A stretch of DNA of 42,503 nt, from NCBI GenBank assembly GCA_016931895.1, contig JAFGDY010000038.1:1-42503 (forward strand), written 5' to 3'. Shown one piece after another: positions 7,114-13,325 of this stretch. This stretch comes from Anaerolineae bacterium (lineage in GTDB: Bacteria; Chloroflexota; Anaerolineae; 4572-78; J111). How positions within the stretch are numbered: position 1 is the first letter of the stretch; every line of letters begins with the position of its first letter. Below the pieces are notes generated by a model. It did no database searches. It was not told the DNA's origin and saw only the letters and a list, made by a program, of their open reading frames with translations. The position numbers were made by a program, and so were the translations under genes.

Positions 7114-7980
7114 ATGCAATCACCTAAAATTGGTTTAGTTTTGGGCGGCGGCGGCAGTCGCGGCCTGGCCCATATTGGGGTACTGGAAGTTTTGCAGCGC
7201 GAGCAGATTCCCATTGACTTGATTGTGGCCACCAGTATGGGCGCGATCATCGGCTCGCTCTTTGCTTTGGGCCTTAGCCCGGCTCAAATAGCCGATGGGA
7301 TGCAAGCCTTACAGAGTAATTCTCTGGGCCTGAAGGTGGCCGGGGCGCGGACCCGGCAGCGGCTGGTGCGCAAACAATTGGCCGGGGTAATGGAAGGCAA
7401 AACCTTTGCCGATCTCAACTTGCCGGTCACCTTGATGGCCGTGGACATGATCCACGGTGAGGAAGTAGCCTTATCTCAAGGGCCGTTGCTGCCGGCGGTT
7501 TTGGCCAGCAGCGCCGTGCCCGGCGCTTTTCCGCCCCTCAAACTCAAGGGCATGGAACTGGCCGACGGCGGCGTGATTGACAGCCTGGCCACCCACGTGG
7601 CTTACGCCCAGGGCGCGGAAAAGGTGATTGCGGTAGACGTTTACCCGCCTCTGGAAAAGGATGACCCCTGGACCGACCCCATCAGCGCCATCTTGGGCGT
7701 GCAATTGCCTCCCCCTATTTTCAGCACCAACGGCAACGGCAAAAACAAAATCCCTACGGCGGCGGCTTCGATGTGGCGCTCGGTGCGGGTGATGACCTGG
7801 TATCTCCACCAACAACGCCTGGCGGCGCATCCGGCGCACGTGCTGCTCCGGCCCCAGGTAAATAATTACCGCTCCCTTGATTTTAAGGAGATTGACGCGC
7901 CTATTCAGGCCGGGGTGGCTGAAACGGAGCGACACCTGGCCGCCTTGAAAGCCCTCACAGAAACGCGCGCCAATGTTTAA
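7114..7980 (+). CDS. Patatin-like phospholipase (RssA/YchK type)
   Basis: The 288-residue protein has the glycine-rich oxyanion loop GGGGSRG (from Gly11), the nucleophile elbow ATSMGA with Ser41 and the dyad aspartate in DGG (Asp151). The elbow normally reads GxSxG; here the first glycine is alanine, a small substitution that may be tolerated. It probably hydrolyses acyl esters of membrane lipids. An AAGGAG sequence lies 12 bases before the ATG, a long spacing. It follows the acyl-CoA synthetase fusion in the same direction, so released fatty acids could be passed to that enzyme. Its stop codon overlaps the stop of the convergent ABC-F gene by four bases. Confidence 0.85.
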   Translation: MQSPKIGLVLGGGGSRGLAHIGVLEVLQREQIPIDLIVATSMGAIIGSLFALGLSPAQIADGMQALQSNSLGLKVAGARTRQRLVRKQLAGVMEGKTFADLNLPVTLMAVDMIHGEEVALSQGPLLPAVLASSAVPGAFPPLKLKGMELADGGVIDSLATHVAYAQGAEKVIAVDVYPPLEKDDPWTDPISAILGVQLPPPIFSTNGNGKNKIPTAAASMWRSVRVMTWYLHQQRLAAHPAHVLLRPQVNNYRSLDFKEIDAPIQAGVAETERHLAALKALTETRANV

Positions 7981-9629
7981 AAACGCGCCCGGATTTGCCC
8001 GTCCCGCAATTCCCAAATGCCCGTCGTAGCCCGGCGAATAAAAGCGCGGTCGTGGGCCACGGCCAACATTGTGCCGGGAAATTGAGCCAGGGCCTCTTCA
8101 AAACGCTCCCGGCTGGGGATGTCAAGATGATTGACCGGCTCATCGAGCAGTAAAAAATTACAGCCCTGCGCCACCAGCAGAGCCAGCATCAGCCGCGCCC
8201 GCTCGCCAAAACTAAGGTCGCCCACCCTCACAAACACGTCGTCGCCGCTAAAGAGGAAAAAGTGCAAAAAACGGCGTATCTCGGTTTGGTCCATCTTAAC
8301 GGCCTCGGCCCGGATAGTATCATAAGGGGTCAGGTCCGGCTCCAGAATCTCTTGCTCTTGAGCCATATAGCCCAATTTAACCCCTGCGCCCAACTGCACT
8401 TGCCCGGCTGTCGGGGCCAACTCCCCGGCGATGAGGCGCAGCAGGGTGGTTTTGCCTTCTCCGTTGGGGCCAACCAGGGCCGCCCGCTGGCCGTGGGTGA
8501 GGATTAAATTGACCCGGCTAAAAAGCGCCCGCTCCCCAAAAGCCATAGCCAGGTTTTCCAGGCGCAACACCTGGCGCGCGCCGCCGGCGTCGTCGGCAAA
8601 ATCAACTTTCAATTGCCAACGGCGCGACGGTTTATCAACGCGCTCTTCGGTGAGCAGTCGCTCTACCCGCCGTTCAATTTGTTTGGCCCGGGCCACCGTC
8701 CGGGTAGATTGGTCGGAAAAGAAACCCTTGGCAAACTTGTCGCCGCTGTCGCCTTTGCCGCCCCGTTTCATTTTGGCCTGACCCCGCAGCCGGCGGGCTG
8801 CGTTTTGCAGCCGGAAAACTTCGTCCTGTTGGTCCTGGTAGGCTTGCCACTGCCGTTCTATCTCGCGGGTCAGGGTTTCGGTGTAAGCAGTATAATTTCC
8901 GGCAAAGTCGCGCAGGGTGTGGGTGGCCGGGTCTATGACCAAGGTGCGGGTGGTGGCGGCATCCAAAAAGGCCCGGTCGTGCGACACCAGCAAAACCGCG
9001 CCATCGTAATTACGCAGCCATTCTTCCAGCCAGGCCAGGGCGTCAAGGTCAAGGTGATTGGTCGGCTCGTCCAGCAGCAGCAGGCACGGCCGGCGGGTCA
9101 ACAGCCCGGCCAAACCCAATCGTGTTTTTTGCCCGCCGCTTAATTTTTCAACCGGCAGGTCGCGCGGCACCTCGGCCAGGCCCAGACCGGTGAGAATGGC
9201 CTCCCGCCGGGCTTCCAACGTGTAACCGCCGGCAGCCTCAAAACGGGCTTCGGCCCCGGCGTAGGCGGTAGTGAGGGCGTCAAGCTGGGTAGCAGAAGCA
9301 GGTTTTGCCATCAGCCCGGCGTAATGCTGCATATCGGCCCAGGCCTGGCTATGCCCGGCCGTAGCGCGGGCCAGGGCCGCATTAACCGTTTCCCCGGCCT
9401 CAAAAATCAGGGCCTGGGCCAGGTAGCCCACCTCCAGTTCCGGCGGGTCAAACCGCACGCTGCCGCCATCGGCCTGCTCCTGCCCGGCGATGAGGCGCAG
9501 CAGCGTGGTTTTGCCGCAGCCGTTTGGCCCCACCAGGCCCACCCGCTCGCCGAAGTTGACGACAAAAGAGACATCGGCCAGAACGGTCTCCAGACCATAA
9601 CTTTTGCATAGTTTGGTGACGTGTAACAT
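7977..9629 (-). CDS. ABC-F family ATPase (ribosome protection/translation factor type)
   Basis: Two ABC cassettes lie in one 550-residue chain without membrane segments. Cassette 1 has Walker A GPNGCGKTT (Lys40), signature LSGGQ and Walker B LLLLDEPTNHLD. Cassette 2 has GPNGEGKTT, signature LSFGE (one residue off the usual LSGGE) and LLLDEPVNHLD. The charged linker between them, rich in Arg and Lys (about residues 240-330), is where ABC-F proteins reach into the ribosome. Members either tune translation or dislodge antibiotics; the subfamily cannot be set by eye. It is the second gene after an Eis-like acetyltransferase, 42 bases apart, behind a leader ORF and two terminators, a setting that favours a resistance or stress role. 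Confidence 0.88.
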   Translation of the reverse strand: MLHVTKLCKSYGLETVLADVSFVVNFGERVGLVGPNGCGKTTLLRLIAGQEQADGGSVRFDPPELEVGYLAQALIFEAGETVNAALARATAGHSQAWADMQHYAGLMAKPASATQLDALTTAYAGAEARFEAAGGYTLEARREAILTGLGLAEVPRDLPVEKLSGGQKTRLGLAGLLTRRPCLLLLDEPTNHLDLDALAWLEEWLRNYDGAVLLVSHDRAFLDAATTRTLVIDPATHTLRDFAGNYTAYTETLTREIERQWQAYQDQQDEVFRLQNAARRLRGQAKMKRGGKGDSGDKFAKGFFSDQSTRTVARAKQIERRVERLLTEERVDKPSRRWQLKVDFADDAGGARQVLRLENLAMAFGERALFSRVNLILTHGQRAALVGPNGEGKTTLLRLIAGELAPTAGQVQLGAGVKLGYMAQEQEILEPDLTPYDTIRAEAVKMDQTEIRRFLHFFLFSGDDVFVRVGDLSFGERARLMLALLVAQGCNFLLLDEPVNHLDIPSRERFEEALAQFPGTMLAVAHDRAFIRRATTGIWELRDGQIRARF

Positions 9630-9671: not shown

Positions 9672-11027
9672 CTAGACCATTTGCATAACCCACGAGGCCT
9701 GCCGGGGAAAGAGCGCGTTGAGCAGCAGCGCCGGCTCTTCCTCGGCCCAACAATCGGGATAGGCGTTGCGCAGTTCGGCCAGGGAGCGATACCCAAAGAG
9801 CAGTTTCAAAAAGACCAGGGGCGGGAATCCGGCTCCGGCCCGTTCTTTTTCATCGGCAGGCTGCCGCCACGCTTCGGCAACAGCCAACCGGCCTTGCTCA
9901 AATACCAGGCGCAATCCGCCCCGGTAAAAGGTGATTTTTAATTCGCCGCTATAACCACTCATCACCGAATCGGCCAGTCGTTTTTCCAGGGCCGGGGCAA
10001 TATGGCGCATAAAACCCGGCACATCCGGCACGCGGATGTACCAGCCGTAAGGGTTCTGCAACTTATCCAATTGAGCGTCAAACGCTTCATAGGCCGGGTG
10101 GTCGGCGCCCAGGCCAAACCGAATGGTGGTGAATTCTCTCTTTGGGCCATCCTTGTTGTTTTCATTAAGGGCGGCCAGACGCGCTTCGCCGTGCGCCTTG
10201 AGCGCGCGCGCAACGGTAGGCAAAACCGTCCGTAGGGAAATCCCTTCGGCCACCGCCAGCGCCCAGGTTTCCACCCGGGACCCCCATAGTTCAGCCGAAT
10301 AGGAATAGGTGCCAACCACGTCGTTGTCGGCGTTGGTCAGGCAGTTGACCCGCCCCATAAAGTGGCGGTGTCTCAGTTCGTAGAGCCAGCGAGTCTCATC
10401 CATTGGCACGGTCACCAATTTGTCCACGGCGCAGCGTTGATAAAGACGGATCAGGGTAGGGATGTCGGCTTCCGTGGCCGGGCGAACCCGGTATGGTTCG
10501 GTTTCATCCTCTTTCAACTCCGGCACCCTGCTCACGGGTAAATTGCGACCGCCTCCCAAGTTCAGGGCGTACTCGTAACCAAACTGGCGGTAAAACCAGG
10601 GGATGCCGGTGATGCCCTGCACTTGATGGCCGTAGGCGTCGCTCAAGGTGTGAATGGCCTCAAAGACATGGCGGGCCAGGCCGCGCCGCCGGTAGGCCGG
10701 GTCGGTGCCGACCAGTTCGGGCTGGCCCATTTTAAAAGGAATGCCATGGTAATGCCATATTTGCGGAATAAGGCAGGTGGCGCTGACAATTTTGTGGGCC
10801 TGAGTATCTTCTACCAGCACAAAATCTTGGGCCAGCATGGTCGGGTGTTGGCCTAACATCAATACTCTGGTCCAGGCAGGTAAAAAGCTCATCGGCTCCC
10901 CGTCCATCAGATGAATCCGCGAGTTGAATTCGGCCACGGCTTCGGTATCCTCCGGGGCGGCCAGGCGCAGAACCAGGCCATCGCCCAGGGGGCGGGGTAG
11001 ATTTAGGGTATCGTGTGGTGCAGACAT
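9672..11027 (-). CDS. GNAT acetyltransferase with sterol-carrier-like C-terminus (Eis-like)
   Basis: ATG 11027 follows a GGAGG site. Residues about 15-160 form a GNAT domain with the acetyl-CoA loop in TDPAYRRRGLARHV, and about 175-310 a second GNAT-like half. The C-terminal 110 residues resemble the SCP2-like domain of Eis proteins. Eis enzymes acetylate aminoglycosides, polyamines or proteins at several amines using acetyl-CoA. The substrate here is not readable. The gene is co-directional with the ABC-F gene, and its long leader (11028-11320) holds a small ORF and two intrinsic terminators, suggesting control by transcription attenuation. Confidence 0.8.
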   Translation of the reverse strand: MSAPHDTLNLPRPLGDGLVLRLAAPEDTEAVAEFNSRIHLMDGEPMSFLPAWTRVLMLGQHPTMLAQDFVLVEDTQAHKIVSATCLIPQIWHYHGIPFKMGQPELVGTDPAYRRRGLARHVFEAIHTLSDAYGHQVQGITGIPWFYRQFGYEYALNLGGGRNLPVSRVPELKEDETEPYRVRPATEADIPTLIRLYQRCAVDKLVTVPMDETRWLYELRHRHFMGRVNCLTNADNDVVGTYSYSAELWGSRVETWALAVAEGISLRTVLPTVARALKAHGEARLAALNENNKDGPKREFTTIRFGLGADHPAYEAFDAQLDKLQNPYGWYIRVPDVPGFMRHIAPALEKRLADSVMSGYSGELKITFYRGGLRLVFEQGRLAVAEAWRQPADEKERAGAGFPPLVFLKLLFGYRSLAELRNAYPDCWAEEEPALLLNALFPRQASWVMQMV

Positions 11028-11492: not shown

Positions 11493-13088
11493 CTATTTTT
11501 CAGGCAAAGCAAGTTTAGGGAACAGGACGCCGTCAGGTTGCACCATTGTGCCGGCCGGGTAGCGGCCCCAGATTGACACTTCGGCCCAATCCCCGTTGGG
11601 TTCCAGAGCAAGGCCAAGTTGCCGGGCGATTTTTTCGCCGGTAGCCGGCAAGAAGGGATGGCAATAATCCGCCACCAACCGTAGCGTTTCGGCCAGGTTG
11701 TAGAGAGTTGTGGCCAATCTGGCCTCGATGGTCGGGTCTTGCCGACGCTGTTTGGCCAGAACCCACGGCTGTACCTCGACGATGTATTTGTTGGCTACAG
11801 CGATGAGGTCCCAAATCGCGGCCAGGGCCTCGTGCAAAGCAAACCGGGCGATAGCCGTGTCTACCCGTTCTGGCAGAGTCTGGGCGGCGTTGAGCAAGAG
11901 CTGGTCAATGGCTTCGGTTGGTCCCGGGGCCGGGACCAGGCCATCGTAATAGCGAGTGACCATTCCCACCACCCGGCTCAAGAGATTGCCCAACTGGTCG
12001 GCCAGGTTGGCGTTGTAGGCGCGGACGAACCGCTCCCAGGTGAAGTCGCCGTCTTCGGTGGCCTTGATTTCGCGGAGCAGGTAGTAGCGCAGGGCTTCGG
12101 CGCCGTATTGTTGGGCTACCGCCACCGGGTCAATGGCATTGCCCAGTGATTTGCTCACTTTTTCCCCGGCCAGGGTGATATAGCCATGAATGAAGATGGT
12201 GGTCGGCAAACGCACGCCCGCCGAAAGCAGCATGGCGGGCCAGTAGACGGCGTGAAAGCGGGTGATCCCTTTGCCAATCACGTGTACCCGGCAGGGGTTG
12301 TCCTGCCAATAACGCCGGTACAGGTCATCTTCCTGGGCATAGTTTAGGGCGGTAATGTAGTTGCCTAACGCATCAAACCAAACATACATAACCTGCCCAG
12401 GATCATGAGGCACGGGGATACCCCAGCCGTGCGCCCTGGCCCGGGAGCGGGAGATGCTGAAATCGTGCAAGCCGGCGTGGATGAAGCTGAGGACTTCGTT
12501 TTTGCGGGTGTCCGGCACAATGCGCAATTGGCCGGACTCAATCAGGGCGGACAGCGGGTCAGTGTACCGCGATAGGCGGAAGAAGTAGTTTTCCTCTGCG
12601 ATGAGTTCCGGCGGGAGGCGATGTTCCGGGCACAGGCCGTCAATTAATTCCTCGGCGGTGTAGAATTGCTCGCAGCCCACGCAGTAGAGACCCTGATAAC
12701 TGCGCCGGTAAATGTCGCCGTTTTGCTCGCAAGCCTGCCACAATTTGCGGACGCCGTCCAGGTGGCGGGCTTCGGCGCTGGTGCGAATGAAATCATCAAA
12801 CGACAGGTGCAACAAGTCGCGCAGGGCGTAAAAGTAGGCCGCGTTGCGATCAACCAGAGCCTGGGTAGAGACGCCTTCACGCTCGGCGGCTTGCACATTT
12901 TTGAGACTGTTTTCATCGGTGCCGGTCAAAAAGCGCACATCCTCCCCGTTGCGGCGATGGTAGCGGGCCAGGGCGTCGGTGAGAACAAATTCCAGGGCGT
13001 GGCCGATGTGAGGCCGGGCGTTCACGTAAGGAATCGCTGTGGTGATAAAATAGGGCGGTTTGGCACCGTTTGGATGTTGCTTGGTCAT
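11493..13088 (-). CDS. metG: Methionyl-tRNA synthetase
   Basis: This class I synthetase charges tRNA-Met with methionine. HIGH is at residues 27-30 (ARPHIGHALEF) and KMSKS appears as KVSKS from Lys310. A zinc-knuckle half, CVGC...CPEH, lies around residue 125-150. The start is ATG 13088, behind a strong GAGGAGG site; a longer open frame to 13190 runs through the terminator hairpin and is rejected. At 531 residues it has the catalytic core and anticodon-binding helices but no C-terminal EMAP-type tRNA-binding domain, as in many short bacterial MetRS. The gene sits behind a methionine-rich leader peptide and an intrinsic terminator, so charged tRNA-Met levels probably control it. Confidence 0.95.
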   Translation of the reverse strand: MTKQHPNGAKPPYFITTAIPYVNARPHIGHALEFVLTDALARYHRRNGEDVRFLTGTDENSLKNVQAAEREGVSTQALVDRNAAYFYALRDLLHLSFDDFIRTSAEARHLDGVRKLWQACEQNGDIYRRSYQGLYCVGCEQFYTAEELIDGLCPEHRLPPELIAEENYFFRLSRYTDPLSALIESGQLRIVPDTRKNEVLSFIHAGLHDFSISRSRARAHGWGIPVPHDPGQVMYVWFDALGNYITALNYAQEDDLYRRYWQDNPCRVHVIGKGITRFHAVYWPAMLLSAGVRLPTTIFIHGYITLAGEKVSKSLGNAIDPVAVAQQYGAEALRYYLLREIKATEDGDFTWERFVRAYNANLADQLGNLLSRVVGMVTRYYDGLVPAPGPTEAIDQLLLNAAQTLPERVDTAIARFALHEALAAIWDLIAVANKYIVEVQPWVLAKQRRQDPTIEARLATTLYNLAETLRLVADYCHPFLPATGEKIARQLGLALEPNGDWAEVSIWGRYPAGTMVQPDGVLFPKLALPEK

Positions 13089-13111: not shown

Positions 13112-13142
13112 AAAAAAGGGCCGCCCTCTGCCGGGCGGCCCT
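13112..13142 (-). terminator. Attenuator terminator of metG
   Basis: Minus strand AGGGCCGCCC and GGGCGGCCCT form a perfect 10-bp stem (13133-13142 with 13117-13126) with a 6-base loop, followed by six T. It lies 25 bases after the leader peptide stop and 24 bases before the metG start codon, so it can only be a regulated terminator for this gene. Confidence 0.9.
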
Positions 13143-13167
13143 TGAATTTTCACGGTTAGTTACTTCA

Positions 13168-13272
13168 TCAACTTTTGCGGGCAGCAGCAAGCATGGGCAA
13201 AATAAAGCGCGGCAGGCCGCGCATGCGCATACCCATGCTCATTAAGAAAATAACTGATAAAACGTTCAACAT
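13168..13272 (-). CDS. Methionine-rich leader peptide of metG
   Basis: This 34-codon ORF starts at ATG 13272 with a GAGG site 8 bases upstream, about 18 bases after the predicted RNA start. Six of 34 codons are Met, and codons 11, 13, 15 and 17 alternate Met with Ser, Gly and Arg (MSMGMRM). Codon 17 abuts a perfect 7-bp hairpin (GCGCGGC at 13207-13213 with GCCGCGC at 13216-13222). The 3' side of that hairpin also offers CTGCCG, complementary to CGGCAG in the terminator's 5' side and loop. A ribosome stalled for lack of Met-tRNA would cover the 5' side of the hairpin and free the 3' side. This is the geometry of amino-acid leader attenuators such as trp and pheST. The peptide is otherwise hydrophobic and has no known family. 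Confidence 0.8.
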   Translation of the reverse strand: MLNVLSVIFLMSMGMRMRGLPRFILPMLAAARKS

Positions 13273-13297
13273 TTCTGCTACCTCACGATCTGGTTAA

Positions 13298-13325
13298 ATT
13301 ATACCTGAATTGAGTTATTCGTCAA
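13298..13325 (-). promoter_or_regulatory. Promoter of the metG leader
   Basis: Minus strand TTGACG (13320-13325), 16 bases, TATAAT (13298-13303). It overlaps the divergent promoter at 13310-13338, so the two may compete for RNA polymerase. Confidence 0.8.

Follow-up and report, generated by a model that had tools for sequence, protein, structure and literature searches.

A Candidate Methionine-Sensing Leader-Peptide Attenuator of Accessory Methionyl-tRNA Synthetase Genes in Chloroflexota and Other Bacteria

Results

A Leader ORF and Terminator Precede an Accessory metG

The stretch of DNA analysed here, called the window, comprises 42,503 nt from an Anaerolineae bacterium (contig JAFGDY010000038.1) and carries a metG gene on the minus strand at 13088-11493. 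Its 531-aa product is predicted to be a type-1 methionyl-tRNA synthetase (MetRS): it scores 475.6 bits against TIGR00398 (cut-off 336), its nearest solved relatives (5xet, 6ax8, 4dlp and 4qrd) identify it as type 1, and the class I signature motifs PHIGH and KVSKS are present. One more metG is present in this genome, an unlike type-2 gene that is the main copy; neither a leader nor a terminator precedes it. The window leader thus controls an accessory MetRS, a point absent from an earlier sequence-only reading of this locus.

All features of the leader lie on the minus strand. A sigma-70-like promoter (TTGACG-16 nt-TATAAT, 13325-13298) matches the consensus at 11 of 12 positions. The leader ribosome site, GAGG in the stretch GGUAGCAG (13284-13281), stands 8 nt ahead of the ATG at 13272, where the leader ORF MLNVLSVIFLMSMGMRMRGLPRFILPMLAAARKS begins (13272-13168; 34 codons plus stop), an assignment based on its methionine enrichment relative to shuffles and on homologous leaders. 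The regulatory Met codons are 11, 13, 15 and 17 (13242-13240, 13236-13234, 13230-13228 and 13224-13222), and a further Met occurs at codon 27. An intrinsic terminator (13143-13116) with an 11-bp stem that includes 9 GC pairs, a 6-nt loop and a T-rich tail follows, and metG starts 27 nt past it at 13088. The neighbouring upstream gene is divergent, and the terminator therefore does not serve as the end of another gene. As expected of an attenuator, an ORF with its own ribosome site comes soon after a promoter, and an intrinsic terminator separates this ORF from metG.

Several segments of the leader could form alternative structures. Proposed region 1, AGCAUGGG (codons 12-14, 13239-13232), is by folding a perfect complement of CCCAUGCU in region 2. 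The leader hairpin (GCGCGG-CCUG-CCGCGC, 13222-13207) spans codons R-G-L-P-R and is kept in most window-type leaders. Region 2, the putative antiterminator strand GCCCAUGCUUGCUGCUGCCC (13198-13179), is the partner of region 3 (13142-13122), which consists of the terminator 5′ arm, the loop and the first bases of the 3′ arm. Compared with dinucleotide shuffles, the leader RNA of 179 nt folds 6.2 sd lower.

The sequence-only reading had already listed the promoter, the ribosome site, the 34-codon ORF with Met at 11, 13, 15 and 17, the terminator and metG in this order, and all of these are confirmed. Its two hairpins are present in somewhat different form. The leader hairpin, given as 7 bp, corresponds to an inverted repeat of 7 bp whose halves are 2 nt apart, but as RNA it has a 6-bp stem and a 4-nt loop; the terminator, given as 10 bp, does have a T-rich tail, but its stem is 11 bp with a 6-nt loop.

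A genome of the same genus (G001) has the leader MSIASFITTFFMMSMVMRMAGLPRFVLPMLAAAPIK ahead of its own accessory metG. Promoter, Met codons, region 2 (which is identical) and terminator are conserved between the two, and the G001 terminator stem contains a compensatory change from C-G to T-A. The window and G001 share the Met run and a block of 24 nt, TTTTGCCCATGCTTGCTGCTGCCC, and both ends of the leader ORF have diverged.

Methionine Codons Are Enriched Far above Chance

We gathered metG genes from a scan of 400 Chloroflexota genomes and from the GTDB contig collection, and derived the chance expectation for Met clusters from shuffled sequence upstream of the terminator. A terminator is present in 34 of 130 Chloroflexota metG upstream regions of the window type. 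The sequence-only reading had suggested a survey of such leaders, and a short ORF with at least 3 Met per 10 codons precedes the terminator in 24 of these 34, compared to 0.35 predicted from shuffles; at least 4 Met per 10 codons are found in 18 terminator-bearing regions versus 0.01 expected. These counts are not independent events, as the sequences within a clade are related, and recurrence in separate clades is the better evidence. No Met cluster was seen in the Chloroflexota metG upstream regions that have no terminator.

For the window itself, none of 200 shuffles reaches even 3 Met per 10 codons, and the observed value is 4. Met is the commonest leader residue, at 14.7% and 17.1% in two pooled sets, versus 1.1-1.6% expected from base composition. 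The run of cognate codons that characterizes an attenuator is therefore both above chance and conserved. Across lineages, the only shared features are the Met codons and their place before the terminator; the remaining peptide differs. The comparison strongly supports the earlier proposal of a Met-codon leader-peptide attenuator before metG, as Met is kept in peptides that otherwise differ.

The Leader Recurs on Accessory Copies in Several Lineages

The leader is found in about 34 genomes and in several MetRS lineages. Window-type leaders occur in G000, G001, G161, G244, G266, G326, G168, G176 and G353, and most contain the motif M-x-M-R-x-R-G-L-P-R. The GLPR part of this motif is kept while the third bases of the Gly and Leu codons vary in the hairpin loop (loci L032, L003, L034, L035, L036, L038 and L039), which hints at a coding constraint beyond what an attenuator would explain. 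A second leader type, ending in V-S-L-S or similar, precedes all 16 type-1 metG genes examined in family f62, whose genomes measure 5.7-13.7 Mb and which, by inference, corresponds to Ktedonobacteria. Further Chloroflexota leaders were found in G026, G237, G298 (weaker), G154 and G375.

The arrangement also occurs in other phyla, which the sequence-only reading did not mention. Two cases are alphaproteobacterial, Pelagibius sp. Alg239-R121 (L063: MLYARTFFTSNMMMPVTMTGAA) and a Rhizobiaceae MAG (L075: MTVSTTLINAKMMMPFTTMGAGFLDA); weaker ones come from a Latescibacterota MAG and a Gemmatimonadota MAG (L071 and L072). The two alphaproteobacterial copies cluster with the window clade in the MetRS tree (support 99/94), and this grouping suggests horizontal transfer. 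Among 385 genomes of the class to which Pelagibius belongs, the accessory MetRS was detected only in Pelagibius itself at the cut-off applied. On the MetRS tree, the leader label requires six changes, all of which are forced by well-supported branches and any of which could be a gain or a loss. No conserved gene neighbourhood was seen around the accessory metG, and the neighbours differ among loci. Inspection of ORF starts by eye places transposase-like and toxin-antitoxin-like genes close to the accessory metG at L063, L075 and L038, which fits mobility.

A second metG is present in 29 of the 34 leader-bearing genomes; those in which the leader-bearing gene is the sole copy are G161, G168, G026 and two incomplete drafts. 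Neither a terminator nor a Met cluster precedes the main metG in any of 14 leader-bearing genomes, and the leader was likewise absent from the main copies inspected in an earlier set. This pattern, in which the second copy is placed under the leader and the main copy is not, is that of an auxiliary-synthetase attenuator of the trpRS1 type.

A Putative Antiterminator Pairing Recurs in Two Clades

In most members of the window clade, a P/S-M-L-x-A-A segment of the leader pairs with the terminator 5′ arm, the loop and the first bases of the 3′ arm. The corresponding P-M-L-A-A-A segment in the window is region 2 (13198-13179), and the pairing recurs at the equivalent place. For the window clade as a set, region 2:3 pairing exceeds shuffles (combined p=0.002) and swapped partners (p=0.022), although an important caveat is that these p-values are somewhat optimistic, because region 3 was extended by 5 nt after we had seen the sequences; a first duplex test, in which region 3 was the 5′ arm and loop only, gave no support for this clade, and consistent pairing was obtained with the wider region.

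In a second clade, the Met run is followed by codons (GUGUCGCUGUCCUCUU and variants) that complement the 5′ arm and loop of the terminator. The leader segments GUGUCAU, GUAUCGC and UUAUCGC match the terminator segments AUGACAC, GCGAUAC and GCGAUA, and both sides have changed at 4 of 8 pairs (permutation p=5e-5). Pairing in this clade exceeds shuffles (combined p=1.6e-10) and is better with own-genome than with swapped partners (p=5e-5). A conserved or covarying competitor of the terminator is thus found for the family, whereas the window sequence alone, which is very GC-rich, does no better than its shuffles (p=0.36).

The sequence-only reading had called for an alternative structure in folds that mask part of the leader, and one appears for part of the Met run. 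When all RNA behind the ribosome is masked in the window, region 2:3 forms 14 bp with a ribosome at Met11 or Met13, but only 3 bp in free RNA or when the ribosome has reached Met15 or Met17. The same reading had the ribosome break the leader hairpin; in these folds the hairpin stays formed during a stall at Met11 or Met13. Masking of the ribosome footprint alone yields no predicted antiterminator for the window, as part of region 2 is then paired with the leader ribosome site. These folds imply that a second ribosome at the leader start would be needed to block this pairing. The terminator is the more stable form in most full-length folds, so that the attenuator model needs kinetic control.

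The stretch GGUAGCAG that holds the ribosome site can pair with CUGCUGCC of region 2 (swap p=0.05 in the window clade and p=0.012 in the second clade), and this pairing possibly shuts off re-initiation on the leader. Complementarity between region 2 and the leader's own ribosome site is seen at L190, L196, L182, L220, L032 and L035. The 1:2 hairpin of an attenuator would include regulatory codons and hold region 2; region 1:2 is an 8-bp perfect complement in the window, but the swap test gives this pairing no support (p=0.26 across the window clade; the other swap p-value is 0.84).

A Second Apparent Leader System and Other Synthetase Leaders

Between metG and a GNAT/ABC-F gene pair, the window contains a second apparent leader system (11340-11030, minus strand), with a TTGACA/TATAAT promoter, a short ORF (11293-11201; MGDKMIKRVIPQDFGGGNAAVFCWSASTGL) and two hairpins that resemble terminators and carry T runs. 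The ABC-F gene (7977-9629, minus strand) scores 428 bits (the NCBIfam cut-off for ribosomal-protection-like ABC-F proteins is 380), and a GNAT acetyltransferase gene (9672-11027) adjoins it. Judged by these matches, the pair is a possible antibiotic-resistance operon. The presence of this operon, with its own short ORF and hairpins, directly downstream of metG fits a resistance setting but does not prove one.

We found no convincing Trp- or Ile-rich leader at trpS or ileS in 20 leader-bearing genomes. The trpS of one of them, G401, is preceded by an Rfam T-box (105 bits; L297, 2600-2875), and a similar terminator precedes trpS in several G401 relatives. The same organisms therefore combine T-boxes for Trp with a peptide leader for Met.

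Discussion

A Model for Attenuation by Met-tRNA

With high confidence, we interpret the locus as a transcription attenuator that works through the ribosome, with Met-tRNA as its signal and an accessory MetRS gene as its target. In this model, transcription would begin just past the promoter and the leader ORF would be translated at once. When elongator Met-tRNA is ample, the ribosome would clear the Met run, and region 2 would then be held by region 1 and by the leader's own ribosome site; with region 2 held, the terminator at 13143-13116 would form and transcription would stop. When Met-tRNA is short, the ribosome would stall within the Met run and cover region 1. Region 2 would be free to pair with region 3 as the latter is made, the terminator would not form, and metG would be transcribed. 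We infer the stalling, the order of folding and the induction by Met-tRNA shortage. The system would probably serve to supply another MetRS in case of inhibition, damage or overload of the first.

Methionine is odd in principle as the sensed amino acid, because every leader is started by fMet-tRNA that comes from the same enzyme. Since the leader must begin with fMet-tRNA, it can respond only as long as charged initiator tRNA remains. A shortage of Met should, in addition, reduce initiation on the leader and favour termination, which counts against the attenuator model. With several Met codons, as many as ten in a leader, the response may come before initiation fails. The leader thus raises the question of whether, under MetRS limitation, charging falls at a different pace for initiator than for elongator tRNA-Met.

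Alternative readings differ in what the ribosome or the RNA would recognize. The sequence-only reading proposed the same Met attenuator with another switch, in which CTGCCG (13213-13208), once freed from the leader hairpin, pairs with CGGCAG of the terminator. This 6-bp match does exist in the window (5 of 6 in G001), and it is the best duplex when region 3 is restricted to the 5′ arm and loop (p=0.10). However, it is not conserved: among seven GLP-motif leaders it is perfect only in the window, with 5/6 matches in three others and 3-4/6 in three. The pairing also involves mostly the terminator loop, and the front of a ribosome at Met17 would cover CTGCCG, so we regard this switch as unlikely. 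It is quite improbable that a sequence-specific arrest peptide, for example around RGLPR, stalls on a drug or metabolite and that the Met richness is secondary. In window-type leaders, Gly-Leu of RGLPR is indeed retained although its hairpin-loop codons have changed synonymously, and the nearby operon resembles a drug-responsive leader system, but across lineages the Met codons and their position before the terminator are the sole common features of the leaders.

We give very little credence to a T-box or a SAM or Met riboswitch beside an incidental ORF: although T-boxes do occur in these bacteria, as at the one trpS leader, neither the window nor 20 metG loci have an Rfam match to a T-box or to SAM or Met riboswitches beyond weak, below-threshold ones. 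Short ORFs are common, and one with some Met codons could by chance precede an ordinary terminator; the shuffle and recurrence tests oppose this, as does the divergent upstream gene, which leaves no other gene for the terminator to end, and its probability is close to nil.

Comparison with Known Systems

Attenuators with leader peptides rich in cognate codons are known for the trp, his, leu, ilv, thr and phe operons (pheST). Predicted examples include Streptomyces trpS and leuS (PMC1262725) and hisS paralogues of bacilli (PMC2965389), and more regulatory codons give an attenuator greater sensitivity (PMC1183508). The metG leaders resemble these classical and predicted systems in having a short translated ORF, a run of cognate codons, a terminator and a competing antiterminator. 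They differ in that they sense Met, which is also the initiator, in that they occur in Chloroflexota and scattered other phyla, and in that they are attached to accessory copies and move with them. Our search of the searchable full-text literature, which is mostly without subscription papers, found no description of a Met leader of metG; among the papers outside it is Lopatovskaya et al. 2010, which reportedly surveyed attenuation at aminoacyl-tRNA operons. Attenuation by a leader peptide that senses Met seems new to the literature, although priority is not proven because of this coverage.

Like T-box leaders of synthetase genes, the metG leaders would sense tRNA charging and act via a terminator on a synthetase gene, but they have no T-box match, whereas one trpS of a leader-bearing genome does have a T-box. 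Two unlike MetRS types in one genome have a counterpart in Streptococcus pneumoniae, for which Gentry et al. reportedly described two distinct MetRS genes in 2003. MetRS1 and MetRS2 differ in their inhibitor spectra (PMC8165550). In the window genome, a type-1 accessory enzyme accompanies a main enzyme of type 2.

Selection for an inducible backup or resistant MetRS is suggested by the association with second copies, by the occurrence in several separate MetRS lineages and by the way the two alphaproteobacterial copies nest beside those of Chloroflexota. We tentatively raise the possibility, doubtful at present, that the accessory MetRS and its Met attenuator form a rescue cassette that recurs, moves horizontally and induces itself, and that it is turned on solely by failure of the resident MetRS. 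If so, soil and water would be expected to contain natural MetRS inhibitors that have so far escaped discovery.

By analogy, the nearest case in logic would be the auxiliary TrpRS (trpRS1) of Streptomyces coelicolor, whose attenuator Vecchione and Sello are said to have described in 2010 (J Bacteriol 192:3565) and which reportedly gives indolmycin resistance. There, too, a second, auxiliary synthetase is placed under a leader peptide with codons for its own amino acid, although the amino acid is Trp rather than Met, the phylum differs, and indolmycin resistance belongs to the Streptomyces system. An inducible backup or resistant MetRS would parallel this auxiliary TrpRS.
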